Assembly (NCBI GenBank): GCA_013433145.1
Contig: CM024175.1
Location: 3,084,516-3,148,515 of the forward strand
Direction of reading: 5' to 3'
Origin: Ascaris suum
Taxonomy: Eukaryota > Nematoda > Chromadorea > Rhabditida > Ascarididae
DNA: 64,000 nt
The notes under the pieces are model-generated. The model ran no database searches. It worked only from the letters and a program-made list of their open reading frames with translations, and was not told the origin of the DNA. Positions 29,718 through 64,000 of the stretch are shown here, one piece after another. A program made the position numbers and the translations under genes. Position 1 is the first letter of the stretch. Every line of letters begins with the position of its first letter.

Positions 29718-29787
29718 TTCCCATGCGGGAATCGAACCCGGGCCGCGTGGGTGAAAGCCACGAATCCTAGCCACTAGACCACATGGA
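29718..29787 (-). tRNA. tRNA-Glu(TTC), two bases short
   Basis: Read on the minus strand, this gives a near-complete tRNA-Glu: D arm GGTCTAGTGGCTAGGATT, anticodon loop CTTTCAC with anticodon TTC, and T arm CCCGGGTTCGATTCCCG. The acceptor strand TCCATG lacks one C against the partner CATGGGA, and the T stem to acceptor junction lacks one G. Both gaps fall in short homopolymers, so the gene may be intact in the animal. Box A and box B are present. Confidence 0.6.
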
Positions 29788-29902
29788 TTCGGTTTTACGA
29801 GTATGTCAATGAGGTTTTCGGGAAGAAGAGGTAATCAATGTTCGTACACTGGAAAACCGTGGAGAAAAGACATTGTTAAGAGGTCCTGCTGCTGGACGTT
29901 CT

Positions 29903-48427: not shown

Positions 48428-50150
48428 AGTATTGATGATAGGTAAAATCTGAAATAAATTACACATGAGAGGAATTCTCTCCTACAAAAGTAGAATCCTT
48501 TGTGCATCCTTCGAAGGATTTGAAGGAGGATGACATCGATCTTTGAATACGTTTGCTGTAGTCGAAACAAGCCAGCTGCTGTTGTCTTATTTTGTCTTAT
48601 TTTCTTTGTTTACTGTTTGTGTCCTTTATACTGGAATAAGAATGTCGTCACCAGTGCTGAGCGAACGTGAATACAATCGAATTCGGCAATTTTTTTTTCT
48701 CACTTTCGATTTTTGAAGCACACACTTTTATGATTACGTTGACGTTTCGTCGTAGGGCAATTACAGCAGTACGCGCTTACATATAGCCTCTTGGTTGTCC
48801 ACTGTGTAATACACAGTGCTTTTTTATGCCCGAATACTGCTTATATCTGTCTGTCCCGCAAGCCACGCTCCACATCACCTCCTTGATGTGCAGAGCAAAA
48901 AATGAGTTTTGGGGAATATACCCTCGGAGCGTTATGCCCTGTCAGGTCCTGTCATGCTGCAGAAGCCCCTAGTAGGTCGTGGGATGACGAAGCGTGCCCG
49001 AATGTCATTGATCATCCCGGCTAGGTGTGGGAAGCCAAACTGCGGCAATAGGGGCACGAGGGATAGCAACCCGAGACGTCACTGCTTCAAGCTTTAGTCG
49101 CTAAAAAGTTGAGTGGAAATAAACGGAATGATTCTTGGCTTCTGACCTTTGGACTGGATGTGAAACGAGTATTGAATCACGATTTGGGTGCAGACTTTTT
49201 CGTTAATTCGTATAACAAGTTCTGTTAACTGATATTCGCCTCATTCATCCAGATAAACATCCAAAATGAATGCTTCTCAATTGAAAATCTAATTAGATGA
49301 ATTTTCAAGCTAATTTTCTAAATTCGTGCAGCTGATAAATTTGACGATCCAATTTTGCGCAGTGGTTGGAGTTTCCGACTCTCCGTACGCAGTATTTTGG
49401 TATAATTTCATCGATCAGAATTGTAATATGAAGGGCAAGATGGTTACGCTAGGTTTACAGTTAACTGTACAACAGTAAACAGTGCGTTGTTGGATTTGGT
49501 GTGCGGTCATAAGCAATGAGTCGTAAGGTAATAGGCAGCGGGCTGTGCGGTCGAGTGTAACGTGATAAACAGTGGGTTGTGAATTGGTCGGCAGGAGGAC
49601 TGGAGAGAATGGAAATTTTCGATTCACAACGCCCTGAACGTTGCAGCTTTCCAGATAACTTGTAGCTCGTCAAGCTCCTGGGGTTTTGCAAATTCGTGGG
49701 TGCGCCATCAATTTGAGGTCTTCCTGGAAGACTCTAATCCTGCTCCGAGATTATCTAGGGCACCCCCTCTCCTCGTTCACCACGTACAAAGAAGGCTACA
49801 CTCAAAAAATGTCTTATACTTTTCTCACACCTTCTCACAGAAAACCACTTTTACTTTCATTGCATTTTGCATCTGAAGAAAAATGAGGCATCAAATCGTC
49901 GCAAGCAAAATCAGAACGAGAAGGGTAGAATAAACCATCACAAGCAACTGCAGCAGAAGAAAAAACACCGTGTCATTTATGCGAAGGACGCAGAACTCTT
50001 TCCCGTGCAACAAAAACCCAACAACAAAACCAAAAGAACCAAAGATACATAGATATGTGCGAAGTTTAAACACTACGAGACTGAATCAAGTGGATGGATG
50101 CATTCCATAAAAATTCACCCACTGCAAATTTTTAGATAATCTGCTTTTCA
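48428..50150. other. Intergenic stretch up to the tRNA array
   Basis: No gene is supported. The segment 49450-49585 repeats variants of AAACAGTG(C/G)GTTGT. The lysine-rich frame at 49867-50052 is low complexity. Confidence 0.4.
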
Positions 50151-50327
50151 AACTGTCGGAAAAGGTTCGACGGCAGCCTCATACCCGACTCACATAGAAC
50201 GTTTCACATGTGCTTTTCATAGTTGTCATCCGATGAAGTCTTTTGACCGAATGGGCGGAACGGACATTCCTTTCCTCTCGGAAGCAGTCCGAACCTGAAG
50301 AACTCAGGCCAGATGAAGTCGGATGTT
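50151..50327 (+). repeat. Left-edge half unit without a tRNA
   Basis: Homology to the spacer starts abruptly at about TGTCGGAAAAGG, just where the trailer of a preceding tRNA would end, and then runs through to copy 1. This half unit is the most diverged in the array (for example GGTTCGACGGCAGCCTC), as expected for an edge unit outside homogenisation. Confidence 0.7.
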
Positions 50328-50400
50328 GGCCCTGTGGCCTAATGGATAAGGCGTCGGACTTCGGATCCGAAGATTGTAGGTTCGAGTCCTGCCAGGGTCG
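50328..50400 (+). tRNA. tRNA-Arg(TCG), array copy 1
   Basis: Flank type C. Next copy 262 bp on. First spacer T-run has only three Ts. Confidence 0.93.
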
Positions 50401-50589
50401 AGAAGATCGTGGGAAATTGTCGGACAAGGTTCGAGGGAGCCTCACGCCCGACTCACATACAATGTTTCACATGTGCTTTCCATAGTCGTCGTCCGATGAA
50501 GTCTTTTGACCGAATGGGCGGAATCCACGATGATTTCGTCTCGGAAGCAGTCCGAACCTGAAGAATTCAGGCAGATGAGGTCGGATGCT

Positions 50590-50662
50590 GGCCCTGTGGC
50601 CTAATGGATAAGGCGTCGGACTTCGGATCCGAAGATTGTAGGTTCGAGTCCTGCCAGGGTCG
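50590..50662 (+). tRNA. tRNA-Arg(TCG), array copy 2
   Basis: Flank type A. Next copy 261 bp on. First spacer T-run has three Ts (CTTTGATAATC). Confidence 0.93.
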
Positions 50663-50850
50663 AGAAGATCGTGGGAAATTGTCGGACAAGGTTCGAGGGA
50701 GCCTCAGGCCCGACTCACATACAATGTTTCAGATGTGCTTTGATAATCGTCGTCCGATGAAGCCTTTTGACCGAATGGGCGAATCGACGATGATTTCCTC
50801 TCGGAAGCAGTCCGAACCTGAAGAACTCAGGCCAGATGAGGTCGGATGTT

Positions 50851-50923
50851 GGCCCTGTGGCCTAATGGATAAGGCGTCGGACTTCGGATCCGAAGATTGT
50901 AGGTTCGAGTCCTGCCAGGGTCG
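50851..50923 (+). tRNA. tRNA-Arg(TCG), array copy 3
   Basis: Flank intermediate between A and C (GAGGTCGGATGTT). Next copy 261 bp on. Three-T run. Confidence 0.93.
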
Positions 50924-51111
50924 AGAAGATCGTGGGAAATTGTCGGACAAGGTTCGAGGAGCCTCAGGCCCGACTCACATAGAATGTTTCACATGTGCTT
51001 TCATAGTTGTCATCCGATGAAGCCTTTTGACCGAATGGGCCGAATCGGCGATGATTTCCTCTCGGAACCACTCCGAACCTGAAGAACTCAGGCCAGATGA
51101 AGTCAAATGTT

Positions 51112-51184
51112 GGCCCTGTGGCCTAATGGATAAGGCGTCGGACTTCGGATCCGAAGATTGTAGGTTCGAGTCCTGCCAGGGTCG
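51112..51184 (+). tRNA. tRNA-Arg(TCG), array copy 4
   Basis: Flank type B. Next copy 260 bp on. Three-T run. Confidence 0.93.
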
Positions 51185-51371
51185 AGAAGATCGTGGGAAA
51201 TTGTCGGACAAGGTTCGAGGGAGCCTCAGGCCCGACTCACATACAATGTTTCAGATGTGCTTTCATAGTCGTCATCCGAAAAAGCCTTTTGACCGAATGG
51301 GCGGAATCGGCGATGATTTCGTCTCGGAACAGTCCGAACCTGAAGAATCAGGCCAGATGAGGTCGGATGCT

Positions 51372-51444
51372 GGCCCTGTGGCCTAATGGATAAGGCGTCG
51401 GACTTCGGATCCGAAGATTGTAGGTTCGAGTCCTGCCAGGGTCG
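51372..51444 (+). tRNA. tRNA-Arg(TCG), array copy 5
   Basis: Flank type A. Next copy 261 bp on. First T4 at 51520, 76 nt after the tRNA end. Confidence 0.93.
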
Positions 51445-51632
51445 AGAAGATCGTGGGAAATTGTCGGACAAGGTTCCAGGGAGCCTCAGCCCGACTCACA
51501 TACAATGTTTCAGATGTGCTTTTCATAGTCGTCGTCCGATGAAACCTTTTGACCGAATGGGCGAATCGACGATGATTTCCTCTCGGAAGCAGTCCGAACC
51601 TGAAGAATTCAGGCCAGATGAGGTCGGATGCT

Positions 51633-51705
51633 GGCCCTGTGGCCTAATGGATAAGGCGTCGGACTTCGGATCCGAAGATTGTAGGTTCGAGTCCTGCCAG
51701 GGTCG
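51633..51705 (+). tRNA. tRNA-Arg(TCG), array copy 6
   Basis: Flank type A. Next copy 260 bp on. Three-T run. Confidence 0.93.
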
Positions 51706-51892
51706 AGAAGATCGTGGGAAATTGTCGGACAAGGTTCGAGGAGCCTCAGGCCCGACTCACATACAATGTTTCACATGTGCTTTGATAATCGTCGTCCGAT
51801 GAAGCCTTTTGACCGAATGGGCGAATCGGCGATGATTTCCTCTCGGAACCACTCCGAACCTGAAGAACTCAGGCCAGATGAAGTCAAATGTT

Positions 51893-51964
51893 GCCCTGTG
51901 GCCTAATGGATAAGGCGTCGGACTTCGGATCCGAAGATTGTAGGTTCGAGTCCTGCCAGGGTCG
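51893..51964 (+). tRNA. tRNA-Arg(TCG), array copy 7, one base short at 5' end
   Basis: Flank type B. The only copy whose body differs: it begins TTGCCCTG where all others have TTGGCCCTG, losing one G of the first acceptor pair. The remainder is intact. Next copy 261 bp on. Confidence 0.85.
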
Positions 51965-52153
51965 AGAAGATCGTGGGAAATTGTCGGACAAGGTTCGAGG
52001 GAGCCTCAGGCCCGACTCACATAGAATGTTTCACATGTGCTTTTGATAGTTGTCATCCGATGAAGCCTTTTGACCGAATGGCCGAATCGGCGATGATTTC
52101 CTCTCGGAACCACTCCGAACCTGAAGAACTCAGGCCAGATGAAGTCAAATGTT

Positions 52154-52226
52154 GGCCCTGTGGCCTAATGGATAAGGCGTCGGACTTCGGATCCGAAGAT
52201 TGTAGGTTCGAGTCCTGCCAGGGTCG
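52154..52226 (+). tRNA. tRNA-Arg(TCG), array copy 8
   Basis: Flank type B, like copy 7. Next copy 261 bp on. Three-T run. Confidence 0.93.
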
Positions 52227-52414
52227 AGAAGATCGTGGGAAATTGTCGGACAAGGTTCGAGGGAGCCTCACGCCCGACTCACATAGAATGTTTCACATGT
52301 GCTTTCCATAGTCGTCGTCCGAAAAAGCTTTTGACCGAATGGGCGGAATCGGCGATGATTTCCTCTCGGAAGCAGTCCGAACCTGAAGAATTCAGGCAGA
52401 TGAGGTCGGATGCT

Positions 52415-52487
52415 GGCCCTGTGGCCTAATGGATAAGGCGTCGGACTTCGGATCCGAAGATTGTAGGTTCGAGTCCTGCCAGGGTCG
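52415..52487 (+). tRNA. tRNA-Arg(TCG), array copy 9
   Basis: Flank type A. Next copy 261 bp on. T4 present in spacer. Confidence 0.93.
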
Positions 52488-52675
52488 AGAAGATCGTGGG
52501 AAATTGTCGGACAAGGTTCCAGGGAGCCTCAGCCCGACTCACATACAATGTTTCAGATGTGCTTTTGATAGTCGTCATCCGATGAAGCCTTTTGACCGAA
52601 TGGGCGAATCGACGATGATTTCGTCTCGGAAGCAGTCCGAACCTGAAGAATTCAGGCCAGATGAGGTCGGATGTT

Positions 52676-52748
52676 GGCCCTGTGGCCTAATGGATAAGGC
52701 GTCGGACTTCGGATCCGAAGATTGTAGGTTCGAGTCCTGCCAGGGTCG
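52676..52748 (+). tRNA. tRNA-Arg(TCG), array copy 10
   Basis: Flank intermediate A/C, like copy 3. Next copy 262 bp on. T4 present. Confidence 0.93.
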
Positions 52749-52937
52749 AGAAGATCGTGGGAAATTGTCGGACAAGGTTCGAGGGAGCCTCAGGCCCGAC
52801 TCACATAGAATGTTTCACATGTGCTTTTGATAGTCGTCATCCGATGAAGCCTTTTGACCGAATGGGCCGAATCGGCGATGATTTCCTCTCGGAACAGTCC
52901 GAACCTGAAGAACTCAGGCCAGATGAAGTCAAATGTT

Positions 52938-53010
52938 GGCCCTGTGGCCTAATGGATAAGGCGTCGGACTTCGGATCCGAAGATTGTAGGTTCGAGTCCT
53001 GCCAGGGTCG
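52938..53010 (+). tRNA. tRNA-Arg(TCG), array copy 11
   Basis: Flank type B. Next copy 263 bp on. T4 present. Confidence 0.93.
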
Positions 53011-53200
53011 AGAAGATCGTGGGAAATTGTCGGACAAGGTTCGAGGGAGCCTCAGGCCCGACTCACATACAATGTTTCACATGTGCTTTTGATAGTCGTC
53101 ATCCGATGAAGCCTTTTGACCGAATGGGCCGAATCGGCGATGATTTCCTCTCGGAACCACTCCGAACCTGAAGAACTCAGGCCAGATGAAGTCAAATGTT

Positions 53201-53273
53201 GGCCCTGTGGCCTAATGGATAAGGCGTCGGACTTCGGATCCGAAGATTGTAGGTTCGAGTCCTGCCAGGGTCG
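53201..53273 (+). tRNA. tRNA-Arg(TCG), array copy 12
   Basis: Flank type B. Next copy 262 bp on. T4 present. Confidence 0.93.
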
Positions 53274-53462
53274 AGAAGATCGTGGGAAATTGTCGGACAA
53301 GGTTCGAGGGAGCCTCAGGCCCGACTCACATAGAATGTTTCACATGTGCTTTTCATAGTCGTCGTCCGATGAAGCCTTTTGACCGAATGGGCGGAATCGG
53401 CGATGATTTCGTCTCGGAAGCAGTCCGAACCTGAAGAATCAGGACAGATGAGGTCGGATGCT

Positions 53463-53535
53463 GGCCCTGTGGCCTAATGGATAAGGCGTCGGACTTCGGA
53501 TCCGAAGATTGTAGGTTCGAGTCCTGCCAGGGTCG
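53463..53535 (+). tRNA. tRNA-Arg(TCG), array copy 13
   Basis: Flank type A. Next copy 263 bp on. Spacer starts with the GGTTCCAGGG variant. Confidence 0.93.
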
Positions 53536-53725
53536 AGAAGATCGTGGGAAATTGTCGGACAAGGTTCCAGGGAGCCTCACGCCCGACTCACATAGAATGT
53601 TTCAGATGTGCTTTTGATAGTCGTCATCCGATGAAGCCTTTTGACCGAATGGGCCGAATCGGCGATGATTTCCTCTCGGAAGCAGTCCGAACCTGAAGAA
53701 CTCAGGACAGATGAGGTCGGATGCT

Positions 53726-53798
53726 GGCCCTGTGGCCTAATGGATAAGGCGTCGGACTTCGGATCCGAAGATTGTAGGTTCGAGTCCTGCCAGGGTCG
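53726..53798 (+). tRNA. tRNA-Arg(TCG), array copy 14
   Basis: Flank type A. Next copy 261 bp on. T4 present. Confidence 0.93.
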
Positions 53799-53986
53799 AG
53801 AAGATCGTGGGAAATTGTCGGACAAGGTTCGAGGGAGCCTCAGGCCCGACTCACATAGAATGTTTCACATGTGCTTTTCATAGTCGTCATCCGATGAAGC
53901 TTTTGACCGAATGGGCGGAATCGGCGATGATTTCCTCTCGAAGCAGTCCGAACCTGAAGAACTCAGGCCAGATGAGGTCGGATGCT

Positions 53987-54059
53987 GGCCCTGTGGCCTA
54001 ATGGATAAGGCGTCGGACTTCGGATCCGAAGATTGTAGGTTCGAGTCCTGCCAGGGTCG
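53987..54059 (+). tRNA. tRNA-Arg(TCG), array copy 15
   Basis: Flank type A. Next copy 261 bp on. T4 present. Confidence 0.93.
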
Positions 54060-54247
54060 AGAAGATCGTGGGAAATTGTCGGACAAGGTTCGAGGGAGCC
54101 TCAGGCCCGACTCACATACAATGTTTCAGATGTGCTTTTCATAATCGTCGTCCGATGAAGCCTTTTGACCGAATGGGCGAATCGACGATGATTTCGTCTC
54201 GGAAGCAGTCCGAACCTGAAGAATCAGGACAGATGAGGTCGGATGCT

Positions 54248-54320
54248 GGCCCTGTGGCCTAATGGATAAGGCGTCGGACTTCGGATCCGAAGATTGTAGG
54301 TTCGAGTCCTGCCAGGGTCG
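54248..54320 (+). tRNA. tRNA-Arg(TCG), array copy 16
   Basis: Flank type A. Next copy 262 bp on. Spacer carries the unusual GATAGTGTCG. Confidence 0.93.
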
Positions 54321-54509
54321 AGAAGATCGTGGGAAATTGTCGGACAAGGTTCGAGGGAGCCTCAGGCCCGACTCACATAGAATGTTTCACATGTGCTTTT
54401 GATAGTGTCGTCCGATGAAGCCTTTTGACCGAATGGGCCGAATCGACGATGATTTCCTCTCGGAAGCAGTCCGAACCTGAAGAACTCAGGCCAGATGAGG
54501 TCGGATGCT

Positions 54510-54582
54510 GGCCCTGTGGCCTAATGGATAAGGCGTCGGACTTCGGATCCGAAGATTGTAGGTTCGAGTCCTGCCAGGGTCG
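54510..54582 (+). tRNA. tRNA-Arg(TCG), array copy 17
   Basis: Flank type A. Next copy 263 bp on. Three-T run. Confidence 0.93.
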
Positions 54583-54772
54583 AGAAGATCGTGGGAAATT
54601 GTCGGACAAGGTTCGAGGGAGCCTCAGGCCCGACTCACATACAATGTTTCACATGTGCTTTCCATAATCGTCGTCCCGATGAAGCCTTTTGACCGAATGG
54701 GCGGAATCGACGATGATTTCGTCTCGGAAGCAGTCCGAACCTGAAGAACTCAGGCCAGATGAGTCGGATGCT

Positions 54773-54845
54773 GGCCCTGTGGCCTAATGGATAAGGCGTC
54801 GGACTTCGGATCCGAAGATTGTAGGTTCGAGTCCTGCCAGGGTCG
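54773..54845 (+). tRNA. tRNA-Arg(TCG), array copy 18
   Basis: Flank type A with one G missing (GATGAGTCGG). Next copy 262 bp on. T4 present. Confidence 0.93.
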
Positions 54846-55034
54846 AGAAGATCGTGGGAAATTGTCGGACAAGGTTCGAGGAGCCTCAGGCCCGACTCAC
54901 ATACAATGTTTCAGATGTGCTTTTCATAGTCGTCGTCCGATGAAGCCTTTTGACCGAATGGGCCGAATCGACGATGATTTCGTCTCGGAAGCAGTCCGAA
55001 CCTGAAGAATTCAGGACAGATGAGGTCGGATGCT

Positions 55035-55107
55035 GGCCCTGTGGCCTAATGGATAAGGCGTCGGACTTCGGATCCGAAGATTGTAGGTTCGAGTCCTGCC
55101 AGGGTCG
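55035..55107 (+). tRNA. tRNA-Arg(TCG), array copy 19
   Basis: Flank type A. Next copy 261 bp on. Three-T run. Confidence 0.93.
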
Positions 55108-55295
55108 AGAAGATCGTGGGAAATTGTCGGACAAGGTTCGAGGGAGCCTCAGGCCCGACTCACATACAATGTTTCACATGTGCTTTCATAGTCGTCGTCC
55201 GATGAAGCCTTTTGACCGAATGGGCGAATCGGCGATGATTTCGTCTCGGAAGCAGTCCGAACCTGAAGAATTCAGGACAGATGAGGTCGGATGCT

Positions 55296-55368
55296 GGCCC
55301 TGTGGCCTAATGGATAAGGCGTCGGACTTCGGATCCGAAGATTGTAGGTTCGAGTCCTGCCAGGGTCG
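55296..55368 (+). tRNA. tRNA-Arg(TCG), array copy 20
   Basis: Flank type A. Next copy 260 bp on. T4 present. Confidence 0.93.
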
Positions 55369-55555
55369 AGAAGATCGTGGGAAATTGTCGGACAAGGTTC
55401 GAGGGAGCCTCAGCCCGACTCACATAGAATGTTTCACATGTGCTTTTGATAGTTGTCATCCGATGAAGCCTTTTGACCGAATGGGCCGAATCGGCGATGA
55501 TTTCTCTCGGAAGCAGTCCGAACCTGAAGAACTCAGGCCAGATGAAGTCAATGTT

Positions 55556-55628
55556 GGCCCTGTGGCCTAATGGATAAGGCGTCGGACTTCGGATCCGAAG
55601 ATTGTAGGTTCGAGTCCTGCCAGGGTCG
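55556..55628 (+). tRNA. tRNA-Arg(TCG), array copy 21
   Basis: Flank type B with one A missing. Next copy 263 bp on. T4 present. Confidence 0.93.
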
Positions 55629-55818
55629 AGAAGATCGTGGGAAATTGTCGGACAAGGTTCGAGGGAGCCTCACGCCCGACTCACATAGAATGTTTCACAT
55701 GTGCTTTTGATAGTTGTCATCCGATGAAGCCTTTTGACCGAATGGGCCGAATCGGCGATGATTTCCTCTCGGAAGCAGTCCGAACCTGAAGAACTCAGGC
55801 CAGATGAAGTCAAATGTT

Positions 55819-55891
55819 GGCCCTGTGGCCTAATGGATAAGGCGTCGGACTTCGGATCCGAAGATTGTAGGTTCGAGTCCTGCCAGGGTCG
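55819..55891 (+). tRNA. tRNA-Arg(TCG), array copy 22
   Basis: Flank type B. Next copy 262 bp on. Three-T run (CTTTGCATAG). Confidence 0.93.
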
Positions 55892-56080
55892 AGAAGATCG
55901 TGGGAAATTGTCGGACAAGGTTCGAGGGAGCCTCAGGCCCGACTCACATAGAATGTTTCACATGTGCTTTGCATAGTCGTCGTCCGATGAAGCCTTTTGA
56001 CCGAATGGGCGGAATCGACGATGATTTCGTCTCGGAAGCAGTCCGAACCTGAAGAACTCAGGCCAGATGAGTCGGATGCT

Positions 56081-56153
56081 GGCCCTGTGGCCTAATGGAT
56101 AAGGCGTCGGACTTCGGATCCGAAGATTGTAGGTTCGAGTCCTGCCAGGGTCG
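56081..56153 (+). tRNA. tRNA-Arg(TCG), array copy 23
   Basis: Flank type A with one G missing. Next copy 262 bp on. T4 present. Confidence 0.93.
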
Positions 56154-56342
56154 AGAAGATCGTGGGAAATTGTCGGACAAGGTTCGAGGGAGCCTCACGC
56201 CCGACTCACATAGAATGTTTCACATGTGCTTTTGATAGTCGTCATCCGATGAAGCCTTTTGACCGAATGGGCGGAATCGGCGATGATTTCTCTCGGAAGC
56301 AGTCCGAACCTGAAGAATTCAGGCCAGATGAAGTCGGATGTT

Positions 56343-56415
56343 GGCCCTGTGGCCTAATGGATAAGGCGTCGGACTTCGGATCCGAAGATTGTAGGTTCGA
56401 GTCCTGCCAGGGTCG
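56343..56415 (+). tRNA. tRNA-Arg(TCG), array copy 24
   Basis: Flank type C. Next copy 262 bp on. T4 present. Confidence 0.93.
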
Positions 56416-56604
56416 AGAAGATCGTGGGAAATTGTCGGACAAGGTTCGAGGGAGCCTCACGCCCGACTCACATAGAATGTTTCACATGTGCTTTTGATAG
56501 TCGTCATCCGATGAAGCCTTTTGACCGAATGGGCGGAATCGGCGATGATTTCGTCTCGGAAGCAGTCCGAACCTGAAGAACTCAGGCAGATGAAGTCGGA
56601 TGTT

Positions 56605-56677
56605 GGCCCTGTGGCCTAATGGATAAGGCGTCGGACTTCGGATCCGAAGATTGTAGGTTCGAGTCCTGCCAGGGTCG
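56605..56677 (+). tRNA. tRNA-Arg(TCG), array copy 25
   Basis: Flank type C. Next copy 264 bp on, the longest interval. T4 present. Confidence 0.93.
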
Positions 56678-56868
56678 AGAAGATCGTGGGAAATTGTCGG
56701 ACAAGGTTCGAGGGAGCCTCACGCCCGACTCACATAGAATGTTTCACATGTGCTTTTGATAGTTGTCATCCGATGAAGCCTTTTGACCGAATGGGCCGAA
56801 TCGGCGATGATTTCCTCTCGGAAGCAGTCCGAACCTGAAGAACTCAGGCCAGATGAAGTCGGAATGTT

Positions 56869-56941
56869 GGCCCTGTGGCCTAATGGATAAGGCGTCGGAC
56901 TTCGGATCCGAAGATTGTAGGTTCGAGTCCTGCCAGGGTCG
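56869..56941 (+). tRNA. tRNA-Arg(TCG), array copy 26
   Basis: Flank type C with one extra A (GGAATGTT). Next copy 262 bp on. Confidence 0.93.
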
Positions 56942-57130
56942 AGAAGATCGTGGGAAATTGTCGGACAAGGTTCGAGGGAGCCTCACGCCCGACTCACATA
57001 GAATGTTTCACATGTGCTTTTGATAGTCGTCATCCGATGAAGCTTTTGACCGAATGGGCGGAATCGACGATGATTTCGTCTCGGAAGCAGTCCGAACCTG
57101 AAGAATTCAGGACAGATGAGGTCGGATGCT

Positions 57131-57203
57131 GGCCCTGTGGCCTAATGGATAAGGCGTCGGACTTCGGATCCGAAGATTGTAGGTTCGAGTCCTGCCAGGG
57201 TCG
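57131..57203 (+). tRNA. tRNA-Arg(TCG), array copy 27
   Basis: Flank type A. Next copy 263 bp on. Three-T run. Confidence 0.93.
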
Positions 57204-57393
57204 AGAAGATCGTGGGAAATTGTCGGACAAGGTTCGAGGGAGCCTCAGGCCCGACTCACATACAATGTTTCAGATGTGCTTTGCATAGTCGTCGTCCGAT
57301 GAAGCCTTTTGACCGAATGGGCGGAATCGACGATGATTTCGTCTCGGAAGCAGTCCGAACCTGAAGAACTCAGGACAGATGAGGTCGGATGCT

Positions 57394-57466
57394 GGCCCTG
57401 TGGCCTAATGGATAAGGCGTCGGACTTCGGATCCGAAGATTGTAGGTTCGAGTCCTGCCAGGGTCG
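57394..57466 (+). tRNA. tRNA-Arg(TCG), array copy 28
   Basis: Flank type A. Next copy 263 bp on. Three-T run. Confidence 0.93.
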
Positions 57467-57656
57467 AGAAGATCGTGGGAAATTGTCGGACAAGGTTCGA
57501 GGGAGCCTCAGGCCCGACTCACATACAATGTTTCACATGTGCTTTGCATAGTTCGTCATCCGATGAAGCCTTTTGACCGAATGGGCGGAATCGACGATGA
57601 TTTCGTCTCGGAAGCAGTCCGAACCTGAAGAATTCAGGACAGATGAGTCGGATGCT

Positions 57657-57729
57657 GGCCCTGTGGCCTAATGGATAAGGCGTCGGACTTCGGATCCGAA
57701 GATTGTAGGTTCGAGTCCTGCCAGGGTCG
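57657..57729 (+). tRNA. tRNA-Arg(TCG), array copy 29
   Basis: Flank type A with one G missing. Next copy 263 bp on. T4 present. Confidence 0.93.
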
Positions 57730-57919
57730 AGAAGATCGTGGGAAATTGTCGGACAAGGTTCGAGGGAGCCTCAGGCCCGACTCACATACAATGTTTCACA
57801 TGTGCTTTTGATAGTCGTCATCCGATGAAGCCTTTTGACCGAATGGGCCGAATCGGCGATGATTTCGTCTCGGAAGCAGTCCGAACCTGAAGAATTCAGG
57901 ACAGATGAGGTCGGATGCT

Positions 57920-57992
57920 GGCCCTGTGGCCTAATGGATAAGGCGTCGGACTTCGGATCCGAAGATTGTAGGTTCGAGTCCTGCCAGGGTCG
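57920..57992 (+). tRNA. tRNA-Arg(TCG), array copy 30
   Basis: Flank type A. Next copy 262 bp on. T4 present. Confidence 0.93.
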
Positions 57993-58181
57993 AGAAGATC
58001 GTGGGAAATTGTCGGACAAGGTTCGAGGGAGCCTCAGCCCGACTCACATACAATGTTTCAGATGTGCTTTTGATAGTTGTCATCCGATGAAGCCTTTTGA
58101 CCGAATGGGCCGAATCGGCGATGATTTCGTCTCGGAAGCAGTCCGAACCTGAAGAATTCAGGACAGATGAGGTCGGATGCT

Positions 58182-58254
58182 GGCCCTGTGGCCTAATGGA
58201 TAAGGCGTCGGACTTCGGATCCGAAGATTGTAGGTTCGAGTCCTGCCAGGGTCG
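58182..58254 (+). tRNA. tRNA-Arg(TCG), array copy 31
   Basis: Flank type A. Next copy 262 bp on. T4 present. Confidence 0.93.
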
Positions 58255-58443
58255 AGAAGATCGTGGGAAATTGTCGGACAAGGTTCGAGGGAGCCTCAGG
58301 CCCGACTCACATACAATGTTTCAGATGTGCTTTTGATAGTCGTCATCCGATGAAGCCTTTTGACCGAATGGGCGAATCGACGATGATTTCGTCTCGGAAG
58401 CAGTCCGAACCTGAAGAATTCAGGACAGATGAGGTCGGATGCT

Positions 58444-58516
58444 GGCCCTGTGGCCTAATGGATAAGGCGTCGGACTTCGGATCCGAAGATTGTAGGTTCG
58501 AGTCCTGCCAGGGTCG
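58444..58516 (+). tRNA. tRNA-Arg(TCG), array copy 32
   Basis: Flank type A. Next copy 261 bp on. T4 present. Confidence 0.93.
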
Positions 58517-58704
58517 AGAAGATCGTGGGAAATTGTCGGACAAGGTTCGAGGGAGCCTCAGGCCCGACTCACATAGAATGTTTCACATGTGCTTTTGATA
58601 GTCGTCATCCGATGAAGCCTTTTGACCGAATGGGCGAATCGACGATGATTTCGTCTCGGAAGCAGTCCGAACCTGAAGAATCAGGACAGATGAGGTCGGA
58701 TGCT

Positions 58705-58777
58705 GGCCCTGTGGCCTAATGGATAAGGCGTCGGACTTCGGATCCGAAGATTGTAGGTTCGAGTCCTGCCAGGGTCG
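58705..58777 (+). tRNA. tRNA-Arg(TCG), array copy 33
   Basis: Flank type A. Next copy 261 bp on. T4 present. Confidence 0.93.
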
Positions 58778-58965
58778 AGAAGATCGTGGGAAATTGTCGG
58801 ACAAGGTTCGAGGGAGCCTCAGGCCCGACTCACATAGAATGTTTCACATGTGCTTTTGATAGTCGTCATCCGATGAAGCTTTTGACCGAATGGGCGAATC
58901 GGCGATGATTTCGTCTCGGAAGCAGTCCGAACCTGAAGAATTCAGGACAGATGAGGTCGGATGCT

Positions 58966-59038
58966 GGCCCTGTGGCCTAATGGATAAGGCGTCGGACTTC
59001 GGATCCGAAGATTGTAGGTTCGAGTCCTGCCAGGGTCG
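58966..59038 (+). tRNA. tRNA-Arg(TCG), array copy 34
   Basis: Flank type A. Next copy 260 bp on. Three-T run. Confidence 0.93.
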
Positions 59039-59225
59039 AGAAGATCGTGGGAAATTGTCGGACAAGGTTCGAGGGAGCCTCAGCCCGACTCACATAGAAT
59101 GTTTCACATGTGCTTTGATAGTCGTCATCCGATGAAGCCTTTTGACCGAATGGGCGAATCGGCGATGATTTCGTCTCGGAAGCAGTCCGAACCTGAAGAA
59201 TTCAGGACAGATGAGGTCGGATGCT

Positions 59226-59298
59226 GGCCCTGTGGCCTAATGGATAAGGCGTCGGACTTCGGATCCGAAGATTGTAGGTTCGAGTCCTGCCAGGGTCG
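59226..59298 (+). tRNA. tRNA-Arg(TCG), array copy 35
   Basis: Flank type A. Next copy 262 bp on. T4 present. Confidence 0.93.
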
Positions 59299-59487
59299 AG
59301 AAGATCGTGGGAAATTGTCGGACAAGGTTCGAGGGAGCCTCAGCCCGACTCACATACAATGTTTCACATGTGCTTTTGATAGTCGTCGTCCGATGAAGCC
59401 TTTTGACCGAATGGGCGGAATCGGCGATGATTTCGTCTCGGAAGCAGTCCGAACCTGAAGAATTCAGGCCAGATGAGGTCGGATGCT

Positions 59488-59560
59488 GGCCCTGTGGCCT
59501 AATGGATAAGGCGTCGGACTTCGGATCCGAAGATTGTAGGTTCGAGTCCTGCCAGGGTCG
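59488..59560 (+). tRNA. tRNA-Arg(TCG), array copy 36
   Basis: Flank type A. Next copy 263 bp on. T4 present. Confidence 0.93.
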
Positions 59561-59750
59561 AGAAGATCGTGGGAAATTGTCGGACAAGGTTCGAGGGAGC
59601 CTCAGGCCCGACTCACATAGAATGTTTCACATGTGCTTTTCATAGTCGTCATCCGATGAAGCCTTTTGACCGAATGGGCGGAATCGGCGATGATTTCGTC
59701 TCGGAAGCAGTCCGAACCTGAAGAATTCAGGCCAGATGAGGTCGGATGCT

Positions 59751-59823
59751 GGCCCTGTGGCCTAATGGATAAGGCGTCGGACTTCGGATCCGAAGATTGT
59801 AGGTTCGAGTCCTGCCAGGGTCG
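59751..59823 (+). tRNA. tRNA-Arg(TCG), array copy 37
   Basis: Flank type A. Next copy 263 bp on. T4 present. Confidence 0.93.
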
Positions 59824-60013
59824 AGAAGATCGTGGGAAATTGTCGGACAAGGTTCGAGGGAGCCTCACGCCCGACTCACATAGAATGTTTCACATGTGCT
59901 TTTGATAGTTGTCATCCGATGAAGCCTTTTGACCGAATGGGCCGAATCGGCGATGATTTCGTCTCGGAAGCAGTCCGAACCTGAAGAATTCAGGACAGAT
60001 GAGGTCGGATGCT

Positions 60014-60086
60014 GGCCCTGTGGCCTAATGGATAAGGCGTCGGACTTCGGATCCGAAGATTGTAGGTTCGAGTCCTGCCAGGGTCG
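60014..60086 (+). tRNA. tRNA-Arg(TCG), array copy 38
   Basis: Flank type A. Next copy 263 bp on. Three-T run. Confidence 0.93.
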
Positions 60087-60276
60087 AGAAGATCGTGGGA
60101 AATTGTCGGACAAGGTTCGAGGGAGCCTCACGCCCGACTCACATACAATGTTTCACATGTGCTTTCCATAGTCGTCGTCCGATGAAGGCTTTTGACCGAA
60201 TGGGCGGAATCGGCGATGATTTCGTCTCGGAAGCAGTCCGAACCTGAAGAATTCAGGACAGATGAGGTCGGATGCT

Positions 60277-60349
60277 GGCCCTGTGGCCTAATGGATAAGG
60301 CGTCGGACTTCGGATCCGAAGATTGTAGGTTCGAGTCCTGCCAGGGTCG
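60277..60349 (+). tRNA. tRNA-Arg(TCG), array copy 39
   Basis: Flank type A. Next copy 261 bp on. T4 present. Confidence 0.93.
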
Positions 60350-60537
60350 AGAAGATCGTGGGAAATTGTCGGACAAGGTTCGAGGAGCCTCAGCCCGACT
60401 CACATACAATGTTTCAGATGTGCTTTTCATAATCGTCGTCCGATGAAGCCTTTTGACCGAATGGGCCGAATCGGCGATGATTTCGTCTCGGAAGCAGTCC
60501 GAACCTGAAGAATTCAGGACAGATGAGGTCGGATGCT

Positions 60538-60610
60538 GGCCCTGTGGCCTAATGGATAAGGCGTCGGACTTCGGATCCGAAGATTGTAGGTTCGAGTCCT
60601 GCCAGGGTCG
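60538..60610 (+). tRNA. tRNA-Arg(TCG), array copy 40
   Basis: Flank type A. Next copy 263 bp on. Spacer has an unusual CTCACAGCCCG. Confidence 0.93.
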
Positions 60611-60800
60611 AGAAGATCGTGGGAAATTGTCGGACAAGGTTCGAGGGAGCCTCACAGCCCGACTCACATACAATGTTTCAGATGTGCTTTTGATAGTTGT
60701 CATCCGATGAAGCCTTTTGACCGAATGGGCGGAATCGGCGATGATTTCGTCTCGGAAGCAGTCCGAACCTGAAGAATTCAGGACAGATGAGTCGGATGCT

Positions 60801-60873
60801 GGCCCTGTGGCCTAATGGATAAGGCGTCGGACTTCGGATCCGAAGATTGTAGGTTCGAGTCCTGCCAGGGTCG
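60801..60873 (+). tRNA. tRNA-Arg(TCG), array copy 41
   Basis: Flank type A with one G missing. Next copy 262 bp on. Three-T run. Confidence 0.93.
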
Positions 60874-61062
60874 AGAAGATCGTGGGAAATTGTCGGACAA
60901 GGTTCGAGGGAGCCTCAGGCCCGACTCACATACAATGTTTCAGATGTGCTTTGATAATCGTCGTCCGATGAAGCCTTTTGACCGAATGGGCGGAATCGAC
61001 GATGATTTCGTCTCGGAAGCAGTCCGAACCTGAAGAATTCAGGACAGATGAGGTCGGATGCT

Positions 61063-61135
61063 GGCCCTGTGGCCTAATGGATAAGGCGTCGGACTTCGGA
61101 TCCGAAGATTGTAGGTTCGAGTCCTGCCAGGGTCG
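61063..61135 (+). tRNA. tRNA-Arg(TCG), array copy 42
   Basis: Flank type A. Next copy 263 bp on. T4 present. Confidence 0.93.
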
Positions 61136-61325
61136 AGAAGATCGTGGGAAATTGTCGGACAAGGTTCGAGGGAGCCTCAGGCCCGACTCACATACAATGT
61201 TTCACATGTGCTTTTGATAGTTGTCATCCGATGAAGCCTTTTGACCGAATGGGCCGAATCGGCGATGATTTCGTCTCGGAAGCAGTCCGAACCTGAAGAA
61301 CTCAGGACAGATGAGGTCGGATGCT

Positions 61326-61398
61326 GGCCCTGTGGCCTAATGGATAAGGCGTCGGACTTCGGATCCGAAGATTGTAGGTTCGAGTCCTGCCAGGGTCG
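61326..61398 (+). tRNA. tRNA-Arg(TCG), array copy 43
   Basis: Flank type A. Next copy 262 bp on. T4 present. Confidence 0.93.
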
Positions 61399-61587
61399 AG
61401 AAGATCGTGGGAAATTGTCGGACAAGGTTCGAGGGAGCCTCAGCCCGACTCACATACAATGTTTCACATGTGCTTTTGATAGTTGTCATCCGATGAAGCC
61501 TTTTGACCGAATGGGCGGAATCGACGATGATTTCGTCTCGGAAGCAGTCCGAACCTGAAGAACTCAGGACAGATGAGGTCGGATGCT

Positions 61588-61660
61588 GGCCCTGTGGCCT
61601 AATGGATAAGGCGTCGGACTTCGGATCCGAAGATTGTAGGTTCGAGTCCTGCCAGGGTCG
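61588..61660 (+). tRNA. tRNA-Arg(TCG), array copy 44
   Basis: Flank type A. Next copy 263 bp on. Spacer starts with the GGTTCCAGGG variant. Confidence 0.93.
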
Positions 61661-61850
61661 AGAAGATCGTGGGAAATTGTCGGACAAGGTTCCAGGGAGC
61701 CTCAGGCCCGACTCACATACAATGTTTCAGATGTGCTTTTGATAGTTGTCATCCGATGAAGCCTTTTGACCGAATGGGCCGAATCGGCGATGATTTCGTC
61801 TCGGAAGCAGTCCGAACCTGAAGAATTCAGGACAGATGAGGTCGGATGCT

Positions 61851-61923
61851 GGCCCTGTGGCCTAATGGATAAGGCGTCGGACTTCGGATCCGAAGATTGT
61901 AGGTTCGAGTCCTGCCAGGGTCG
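61851..61923 (+). tRNA. tRNA-Arg(TCG), array copy 45
   Basis: Flank type A. Next copy 262 bp on. Trailer lacks one G (TTGTCGACAAGG). Confidence 0.93.
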
Positions 61924-62112
61924 AGAAGATCGTGGGAAATTGTCGACAAGGTTCGAGGGAGCCTCAGGCCCGACTCACATACAATGTTTCACATGTGCTT
62001 TTGATAGTTGTCATCCGATGAAGCCTTTTGACCGAATGGGCGGAATCGGCGATGATTTCGTCTCGGAAGCAGTCCGAACCTGAAGAACTCAGGACAGATG
62101 AGGTCGGATGCT

Positions 62113-62185
62113 GGCCCTGTGGCCTAATGGATAAGGCGTCGGACTTCGGATCCGAAGATTGTAGGTTCGAGTCCTGCCAGGGTCG
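62113..62185 (+). tRNA. tRNA-Arg(TCG), array copy 46
   Basis: Flank type A. Next copy 263 bp on. First of the most uniform units. Confidence 0.93.
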
Positions 62186-62375
62186 AGAAGATCGTGGGAA
62201 ATTGTCGGACAAGGTTCGAGGGAGCCTCAGGCCCGACTCACATACAATGTTTCACATGTGCTTTTGATAGTTGTCATCCGATGAAGCCTTTTGACCGAAT
62301 GGGCGGAATCGGCGATGATTTCGTCTCGGAAGCAGTCCGAACCTGAAGAATTCAGGACAGATGAGGTCGGATGCT

Positions 62376-62448
62376 GGCCCTGTGGCCTAATGGATAAGGC
62401 GTCGGACTTCGGATCCGAAGATTGTAGGTTCGAGTCCTGCCAGGGTCG
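62376..62448 (+). tRNA. tRNA-Arg(TCG), array copy 47
   Basis: Flank type A. Next copy 263 bp on. T4 present. Confidence 0.93.
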
Positions 62449-62638
62449 AGAAGATCGTGGGAAATTGTCGGACAAGGTTCGAGGGAGCCTCAGGCCCGAC
62501 TCACATACAATGTTTCACATGTGCTTTTGATAGTTGTCATCCGATGAAGCCTTTTGACCGAATGGGCGGAATCGGCGATGATTTCGTCTCGGAAGCAGTC
62601 CGAACCTGAAGAACTCAGGACAGATGAGGTCGGATGCT

Positions 62639-62711
62639 GGCCCTGTGGCCTAATGGATAAGGCGTCGGACTTCGGATCCGAAGATTGTAGGTTCGAGTCC
62701 TGCCAGGGTCG
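62639..62711 (+). tRNA. tRNA-Arg(TCG), array copy 48
   Basis: Flank type A. Next copy 263 bp on. T4 present. Confidence 0.93.
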
Positions 62712-62901
62712 AGAAGATCGTGGGAAATTGTCGGACAAGGTTCGAGGGAGCCTCAGGCCCGACTCACATACAATGTTTCACATGTGCTTTTGATAGTTGT
62801 CATCCGATGAAGCCTTTTGACCGAATGGGCGGAATCGGCGATGATTTCGTCTCGGAAGCAGTCCGAACCTGAAGAACTCAGGTCAGATGAGGTCGGATGC
62901 T

Positions 62902-62974
62902 GGCCCTGTGGCCTAATGGATAAGGCGTCGGACTTCGGATCCGAAGATTGTAGGTTCGAGTCCTGCCAGGGTCG
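62902..62974 (+). tRNA. tRNA-Arg(TCG), array copy 49
   Basis: Flank type A with CTCAGGTCAG upstream. Next copy 261 bp on. Three-T run. Confidence 0.93.
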
Positions 62975-63162
62975 AGAAGATCGTGGGAAATTGTCGGACA
63001 AGGTTCGAGGGAGCCTCAGGCCGACTCACATACAATGTTTCACATGTGCTTTGATAGTTGTCATCCGATGAAGCCTTTTGACCGAATGGGCGGAATCGAC
63101 GATGATTTCGTCTCGGAAGCAGTCCGAACCTGAAGAATTCAGGACAGATGAGGTCGGATGCT

Positions 63163-63235
63163 GGCCCTGTGGCCTAATGGATAAGGCGTCGGACTTCGGA
63201 TCCGAAGATTGTAGGTTCGAGTCCTGCCAGGGTCG
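63163..63235 (+). tRNA. tRNA-Arg(TCG), array copy 50
   Basis: Flank type A. Next copy 262 bp on. Trailer has a substitution (TTGTCAGAC). Confidence 0.93.
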
Positions 63236-63424
63236 AGAAGATCGTGGGAAATTGTCAGACAAGGTTCGAGGGAGCCTCAGGCCGACTCACATACAATGTT
63301 TCACATGTGCTTTTGATAGTTGTCATCCGATGAAGCCTTTTGACCGAATGGGCCGAATCCACGATGATTTCGTCTCGGAAGCAGTCCGAACCTGAAGAAC
63401 TCAGGTCAGATGAGGTCGGATGCT

Positions 63425-63497
63425 GGCCCTGTGGCCTAATGGATAAGGCGTCGGACTTCGGATCCGAAGATTGTAGGTTCGAGTCCTGCCAGGGTCG
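63425..63497 (+). tRNA. tRNA-Arg(TCG), array copy 51
   Basis: Flank type A. Next copy 263 bp on. T4 present. Confidence 0.93.
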
Positions 63498-63687
63498 AGA
63501 AGATCGTGGGAAATTGTCGGACAAGGTTCGAGGGAGCCTCAGGCCCGACTCACATACAATGTTTCACATGTGCTTTTGATAGTTGTCATCCGATGAAGCC
63601 TTTTGACCGAATGGGCGGAATCCACGATGATTTCGTCTCGGAAGCAGTCCGAACCTGAAGAACTCAGGACAGATGAGGTCGGATGCT

Positions 63688-63760
63688 GGCCCTGTGGCCT
63701 AATGGATAAGGCGTCGGACTTCGGATCCGAAGATTGTAGGTTCGAGTCCTGCCAGGGTCG
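63688..63760 (+). tRNA. tRNA-Arg(TCG), array copy 52
   Basis: Flank type A. Next copy 263 bp on. Trailer lacks one G, as in copy 45. Confidence 0.93.
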
Positions 63761-63950
63761 AGAAGATCGTGGGAAATTGTCGACAAGGTTCGAGGGAGCC
63801 TCAGGCCCGACTCACATACAATGTTTCACATGTGCTTTTGATAGTTGTCATCCGATGAAGCCTTTTGACCGAATGGGCGGAATCGGACGATGATTTCGTC
63901 TCGGAAGCAGTCCGAACCTGAAGAATTCAGGTCAGATGAGGTCGGATGCT

Positions 63951-64000
63951 GGCCCTGTGGCCTAATGGATAAGGCGTCGGACTTCGGATCCGAAGATTGT
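63951..64000 (+). tRNA. tRNA-Arg(TCG), array copy 53, cut by window end
   Basis: First 50 bases only, through the anticodon arm and variable loop, identical to the other copies. Confidence 0.9.

Follow-up and report, generated by a model that had tools for sequence, protein, structure and literature searches.

We identified, in a 64,000-nucleotide window of the Ascaris suum genome (C13:3084516-3148515; all of this stretch is meant by "the window"), the larger part of a tandem array, bounded on both sides, with 65 intact tRNA-Arg(UCG) genes, which probably supplies this tRNA in bulk by way of precursors with long trailers of about 75-105 nt. An earlier reading of the window from its letters only (the sequence-only reading) had proposed the supply of one isoacceptor as one possible function; that the array carries a single isoacceptor stands, and supply is retained here as the best reading, but the special position given to the TCG anticodon is not. 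The genome searched comprises 277.8 Mb in 97 contigs, and the contig C13 that carries the array is 12.19 Mb long.

Within the window, ARAGORN predicted 52 complete tRNA-Arg(TCG) genes, which span 50327 to 63761 and without exception lie on the + strand. A search with Rfam returned the same 52 genes and a 53rd clipped by the window end (Table 1). Fifty-one of the 52 complete copies score 68.6 bits and one scores 59.7; the gathering score of the family is 29. Tandem Repeats Finder (TRF) describes the array with a period of 262 bp and 97% matches; the units are spaced by 259-264 bp and contain a single tRNA each, and neither ARAGORN nor TRF reported a shorter tandem repeat. The array continues for 3.4 kb past the window end, giving a total of 65 intact copies (the same 65 were found with the 3' half of the gene), and non-array sequence flanks it on the left and on the right. 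Its right end according to TRF, C13:3151934, falls within a single degenerate edge copy extending to 3152077, and we left this 66th copy out of the counts of bodies and columns below. The gene count, the common strand and the head-to-tail period that had been read from the letters are thus borne out, as is the expectation that the array runs on beyond the window.

As 63 of the 65 units are distinct in sequence, the copies are unlikely to have been invented by the assembler, although the exact copy number still depends on the reads. The sequence-only reading had been concerned about an expanded or collapsed assembly, and such an artefact, in which copies were multiplied or merged, would be favoured by the difficulty of assembling repeats of high identity and by the single-base gaps seen in the spacer. 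However, the differences among units and the placement of the array inside one contig with other sequence on both sides speak against it, and errors would have struck tRNA and spacer equally, whereas the tRNA is without indels. We consider this explanation extremely improbable.

Conservation of the tRNA within and between arrays

The tRNA bodies are identical in 63 of the 65 copies, and none of them contains an indel. Only two of the 73 tRNA columns vary, each in one copy, whereas the spacer varies at 46 of 195 columns (p 2e-5 in a Fisher test that treats the columns as independent). A second, small array of three tRNA-Arg(TCG) copies, ending in a truncated copy, lies on the opposite strand 1.88 Mb away (near C13:1254132-1255088), and between the two arrays the tRNA is identical at 72 of 73 positions and the spacer, all columns taken, at 155 of 191. 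The same pattern was found in other tRNA arrays of the genome. In the 10 kb that we read of a tRNA-Arg(ACG) array on contig C17, 41 of 42 copies share an identical body, the exception being a broken end copy, and in 40 aligned units none of the 73 tRNA columns varies, versus 57 of the 155 spacer columns; this alignment was built with an exact start word and a length cut, which removed the end copy as well as a unit with long spacing, and both are included in the count of 42. Similarly, 50 units of a tRNA-Leu array vary at 2 of 82 tRNA columns and at 52 of 119 spacer columns, and the sole common tRNA variant there is the first anticodon base. Since the tRNA is far less variable than the spacer across the arrays, we take the tRNA to be the target of selection, which is purifying both within and between arrays.

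This result bears on several of the other explanations. The view that a spreading satellite had caught a tRNA gene is disfavoured by the much stronger conservation of the tRNA relative to the spacer. A chromatin boundary or structural element acting through the binding of TFIIIC would explain why the 3' half of the gene, including the B box, is unchanged in all 65 copies, and a tandem repeat of tRNA genes at human 1q23.3 has been proposed as a boundary (PMC4041453). However, the acceptor and anticodon stems are nearly invariant too. TFIIIC binding should not require these stems to be intact, and we regard this explanation as very improbable.

The head-to-tail copies also evolve in concert. Neighbouring units show 7.2 differences, compared with 9.1 when the units are shuffled, and none of 5000 shuffles gave a value as low; the right half of the array is the more uniform (6.5 versus 10.5 differences). 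Among the variants of the Arg-TCG spacer, C/G transversions are the commonest class (16 of 43 site-by-base changes), and in five arrays pooled they number 36 of 155, level with A/G (37) and C/T (36). The sites concerned often show a one-base gap as well, and these transversions may have a mutational cause or may be an artefact of the consensus. A search with the spacer found, beyond the tRNA, a match only at C13:1254132-1255043, a weak result because very common words were skipped and the window's own array was missed; a word from the spacer had no match in public prokaryote or viral contigs.

Displaced terminators and the trailer

Terminator distances are given here as the number of bases that separate the T-run from the tRNA. 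In none of the 65 Arg-TCG copies does a TTTT start within 74 nt behind the tRNA. The first TTTT is found at 74-77 in 46 copies and at 101-104 in the other 19; a TTTT at 101-104 is present in all 65 and is retained in the three-copy array. In the Arg-ACG array the first T-run lies at 69-71 in 40 of 42 copies, at 142 in one and at 15 in the broken end copy, and the corresponding distances are 147-180 and 152-155, where a T-run was found, in two tRNA-Lys arrays, 43-76 in a tRNA-Gly array, 11-15 in a tRNA-Arg(TCT) array, and 17-20 in 49 of 50 units of the Leu array, with 47 in the remaining one. Among dispersed tRNA genes, in a non-random sample, four Ts (T4) were found no more than 22 nt from the ARAGORN end in 23 of 25; this count excludes one gene (L053) that ARAGORN joined from two pieces and that has seven Ts at 16. 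A nearby T4 is therefore lacking in five of seven arrays versus two of 25 dispersed genes (Fisher p 0.002, with arrays and genes as the units). Two dispersed Arg-ACG genes have bodies identical to those of the array and carry T4 at 3 and 4, which places the difference in the flanking sequence rather than in the tRNA. The lack of a nearby T-run thus lowers the probability that the array copies are ordinary tRNA genes, but not that they are tRNA genes. The sequence-only reading had missed the displacement of the terminator, as well as the base at position 50 described in the next section. Behind the tRNA remnant of the degenerate right-end copy there is a TTTTT at 6 nt, which may be what is left of a nearby terminator that the rest of the array has lost.

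A tandem repeat amplified by unequal exchange, which lost its nearby terminators and is mostly shut in chromatin, would also show such displaced T-runs, as do five of the seven arrays, and it would fit the partial decay of one of the Lys arrays; most tissues of Arabidopsis keep a Ser-Tyr-Tyr (SYY) tRNA cluster silenced (PMC12308677). However, an array long silent would not have kept changes in the tRNA so much rarer than those in the spacer, within as well as between arrays, nor is the retention of the distal T4 in every copy expected of it. We judge a silent repeat to be rather unlikely.

The trailer itself is partly conserved. Between the main and the three-copy array its first 25 nt are identical at 25 of 25 positions and the following 76 columns at 61 (p 0.02). 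In the stretch of the Arg-ACG array that we read (C17:2642000-2651999), tRNA and trailer are near-constant to and past a run of five Ts at 71, and common variants occur only beyond unit position 160, that is, past the predicted transcript end. Selection for a product other than the tRNA, be it a transcript of about 150-180 nt, its trailer or tRNA fragments, would explain the conserved start of the Arg-TCG trailer, and likewise why variants of the Arg-ACG array stay rare, each in no more than 2 of 40 units, through the five Ts and beyond. On the other hand, the trailer of copy 2 folds no better than its shuffles (z +0.47), the remainder of the Arg-TCG trailer is variable, and the trailers of different arrays are unlike by eye, making such a product, in our view, improbable. 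A conserved structured trailer RNA was likewise considered and found unsupported by the fold of the copy 2 trailer. For both types of Arg-TCG array the predicted fold does include a long hairpin, but sites on its 3' side vary between copies.

Other tRNA arrays and dispersed genes in the genome

The genome contains at least seven tRNA arrays, the Arg-TCG array among them (the three-copy array was not counted as an eighth). A pattern for the anticodon arm of tRNA-Arg(TCG), with up to two mismatches, matches 73 places genome-wide: the 65 array copies, the degenerate edge copy, the three copies of the small array, and four genes outside arrays, three on contig C5, of which two are separated by 1.6 kb, and one on C22. 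The Arg-ACG arm is found at 80 places, namely 75 exact arms and one with two mismatches in the C17 array (period about 225), and four dispersed genes; at least one of the 75 belongs to the broken end copy. For the same anticodon, array and dispersed sets thus number 65+3 versus 4 for TCG and 75 versus 4 for ACG. The sequence-only reading had singled out TCG as a surprising choice for so many copies. We reject TCG as a singular case, since the array for the other main reader of CGN codons is larger still, and the genome also has two arrays for Lys-TTT and others for Arg-TCT, Gly-TCC and Leu. A sample of four genes with sperm-protein domains yielded 15 Arg codons (CGT 10, AGA 2, CGA 1, CGC 1, AGG 1), too few to gauge the demand for CGA.

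The array copies of tRNA-Arg(TCG) are set apart from the dispersed ones by one base: position 50, in the T stem, is T in all 65 array copies and also in the three-copy array, and C in all four dispersed genes. Two of these four have a paired change in the acceptor stem, T6C with A67G, as expected for working tRNAs.

Table 1. Coordinates of the Arg-TCG array, its parts and further tRNA arrays (window positions, unless a contig is named)
Feature	Position	Strand	Remarks
Tandem array, unit of about 262 bp, tRNA-Arg(TCG) genes (52 complete, one cut)	50150..64000	+	ARAGORN, TRF, Rfam
Left edge, partial unit (unit positions 87-262) without tRNA	50150..50326	+	nhmmer, unit profile
tRNA-Arg(TCG) copy 1, 73 nt	50328..50400	+	ARAGORN, Rfam; TGGCCTAATGG and GGTTCGAGTCC, which we take to be A box and B box from the box consensus
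TTTT, predicted distal RNA polymerase III (Pol III) terminator of copy 1	50504..50507	+	103 bases between
tRNA copy 2	50590..50662	+	Rfam
Trailer start of copy 2, 25 nt	50663..50687	+	Consensus 25/25 between both Arg-TCG arrays; first 21 nt invariant in 65 copies
TTTT after copy 2	50765-50768	+	102 bases between
Optional nearer TTTT, copy 5	51520..51523	+	75 bases behind; such TTTT at 74-77 in 46/65
Last complete copy in the window	63688..63760	+	Rfam
Copy 53, clipped by window end, whole in genome	63951..64000	+	Rfam
Degenerate 66th copy, right edge	C13:3151879-3152077		Excluded from column counts
Lys-TTT array	C1:3395319-3404413		At least 29 scored
Second Lys-TTT array	near C1:3.588 Mb (C1:3587700-3590700)		8 genes listed
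Arg-TCT array	near C22:4.188 Mb		At least 24 scored
Gly-TCC array	C1:3.268-3.285 Mb		84 B boxes listed
Leu array	from C5:11.465 Mb onward		At least 67 B boxes

A B-box word, GGTTCGANTCC, occurs 2211 times in the genome, versus 138 times for the reversed control. We rejected the use of B-box tallies as gene counts, since ARAGORN found a tRNA at only four of 18 single places of GGTTCGAATCC (18 were fetched of the 19 single places listed on C1 and C2). In the 50 units of the Leu array (C5:11464400-11474399) we counted 33 AAG and 14 TAG anticodons and three with an altered loop length, intermingled along the array; its copies differ almost only at the first anticodon base, and by its predicted anticodons this one array would feed two isoacceptors. 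In the second Lys array, 0.18 Mb from the intact one, four of the eight genes listed are short by one or two tRNA bases. The window also contains a solitary tRNA-Glu(TTC) gene at 29718-29788; it has a low score of 42.6 bits and no T4 nearer than 46 nt downstream, and it may be a copy in decay. The search for protein families in the window covered five long open reading frames, which gave no Pfam family at E 0.01. Tandem repetition is also seen for the SL1 RNA, which lies on contig C19 in two separate blocks (1429929-1458379 and 5856233-5884198) with a spacing of mostly 1.03-1.06 kb; the SL1 search on this contig scored 50 matches, all above the cut-off, in repeats of about 1 kb, and a stretch of them (L041) holds, in both orientations, what is presumably 5S rRNA. 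SL1 RNA and the genes with sperm-protein domains mark the genome as that of a nematode.

Proposed mechanism and relation to known systems

According to the bulk-source reading, unequal exchange and gene conversion would keep the copies alike, with selection preserving the tRNA. Pol III would start at the internal promoter of each copy and read on to the T-run 74-77 or 101-104 bases beyond the gene, RNase Z would trim the long trailer, and the output of the array would add to that of the few dispersed genes in demanding tissues or stages, possibly the germ line. A number of points weigh against this reading. A displaced terminator is expected to slow the recycling of Pol III, at odds with bulk output. 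The Arg-TCT and Leu arrays with their nearby T-runs indicate that displacement is not universal among arrays; nor are all arrays kept intact, given the decay of the second Lys array. Conversely, two dispersed genes lack a nearby T4, the solitary Glu gene of the window and one (L063) without any in 150 nt, and the dispersed sample consists mostly of matches to the array query and of top Rfam scores. The trailer of copy 2 has no special fold, and a sequence mark is absent from Arg-ACG, two of whose dispersed genes match the array tRNA at every base, so that the mark is not general. In yeast, read-through pre-tRNAs, typically 50-200 nt longer, have low steady-state levels and are kept down by surveillance (PMC4937561).

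A wider proposal, which we put forward tentatively and hold to be the less probable side of the question, is that each such anticodon may be served by two classes of genes: dispersed housekeeping genes with the usual stop, and arrays resembling those of ribosomal DNA, with the stop displaced by 40-180 nt. The tRNAs of the arrays would then arise as a precursor class of their own, with long trailers whose trimming could be switched by tissue or stage. The bulk-source reading has a parallel in Xenopus, which reportedly has a dual tRNA gene system with one set of tRNA-Tyr genes for the oocyte and another for somatic cells (Stutz et al. 1989, cited in PMC3565088). The likeness is that of two gene sets for one tRNA, here a large tandem set and four other genes, told apart by T50 and C50 for Arg-TCG; in the Xenopus case stage-specific expression is reported, and a displaced terminator is not mentioned in the passage concerned.

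Tandem tRNA arrays or large clusters are already known, from Entamoeba, Nematostella, fishes, newts, Arabidopsis and human, going by the parts of that literature consulted. As in Ascaris, the Entamoeba arrays are spread over the genome (PMC2652664), but their units hold up to five tRNA genes with short repeats between them, while ours has one tRNA and no such repeats were found, so the array is not of the Entamoeba type. Large clusters are described in Nematostella and teleost fishes in a study whose passages treat Caenorhabditis among nematodes and do not discuss terminators (PMC2888827). The SYY cluster (PMC12308677) and the 0.4-kb tRNA-Cys repeats (PMC10701932) of Arabidopsis share with our array the tandem units, growth by duplication and redundancy with dispersed genes; the SYY cluster, however, is silent in most tissues and reactivated in root tips. 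The human variable number tandem repeat at 1q23.3 contains tRNA genes as well, but in a 7.3-kb unit that binds CTCF (PMC4041453), in contrast to one gene in 262 bp. No literature on nematode nuclear tRNA arrays was found among the open-licence matches listed, and no description of array-specific terminator displacement in the passages on tRNA arrays. The arrays as such are not new.

Because of the difference at position 50, ordinary sequencing of tRNA could show which Arg-UCG genes are in use in a given tissue, and from the displaced terminators one would expect a class of precursors visible on a gel. An odd repeat thereby becomes a testable two-class system of tRNA genes, one that would bear on why some animals amplify their tRNA genes and on whether the distance of Pol III termination serves as a point of control.

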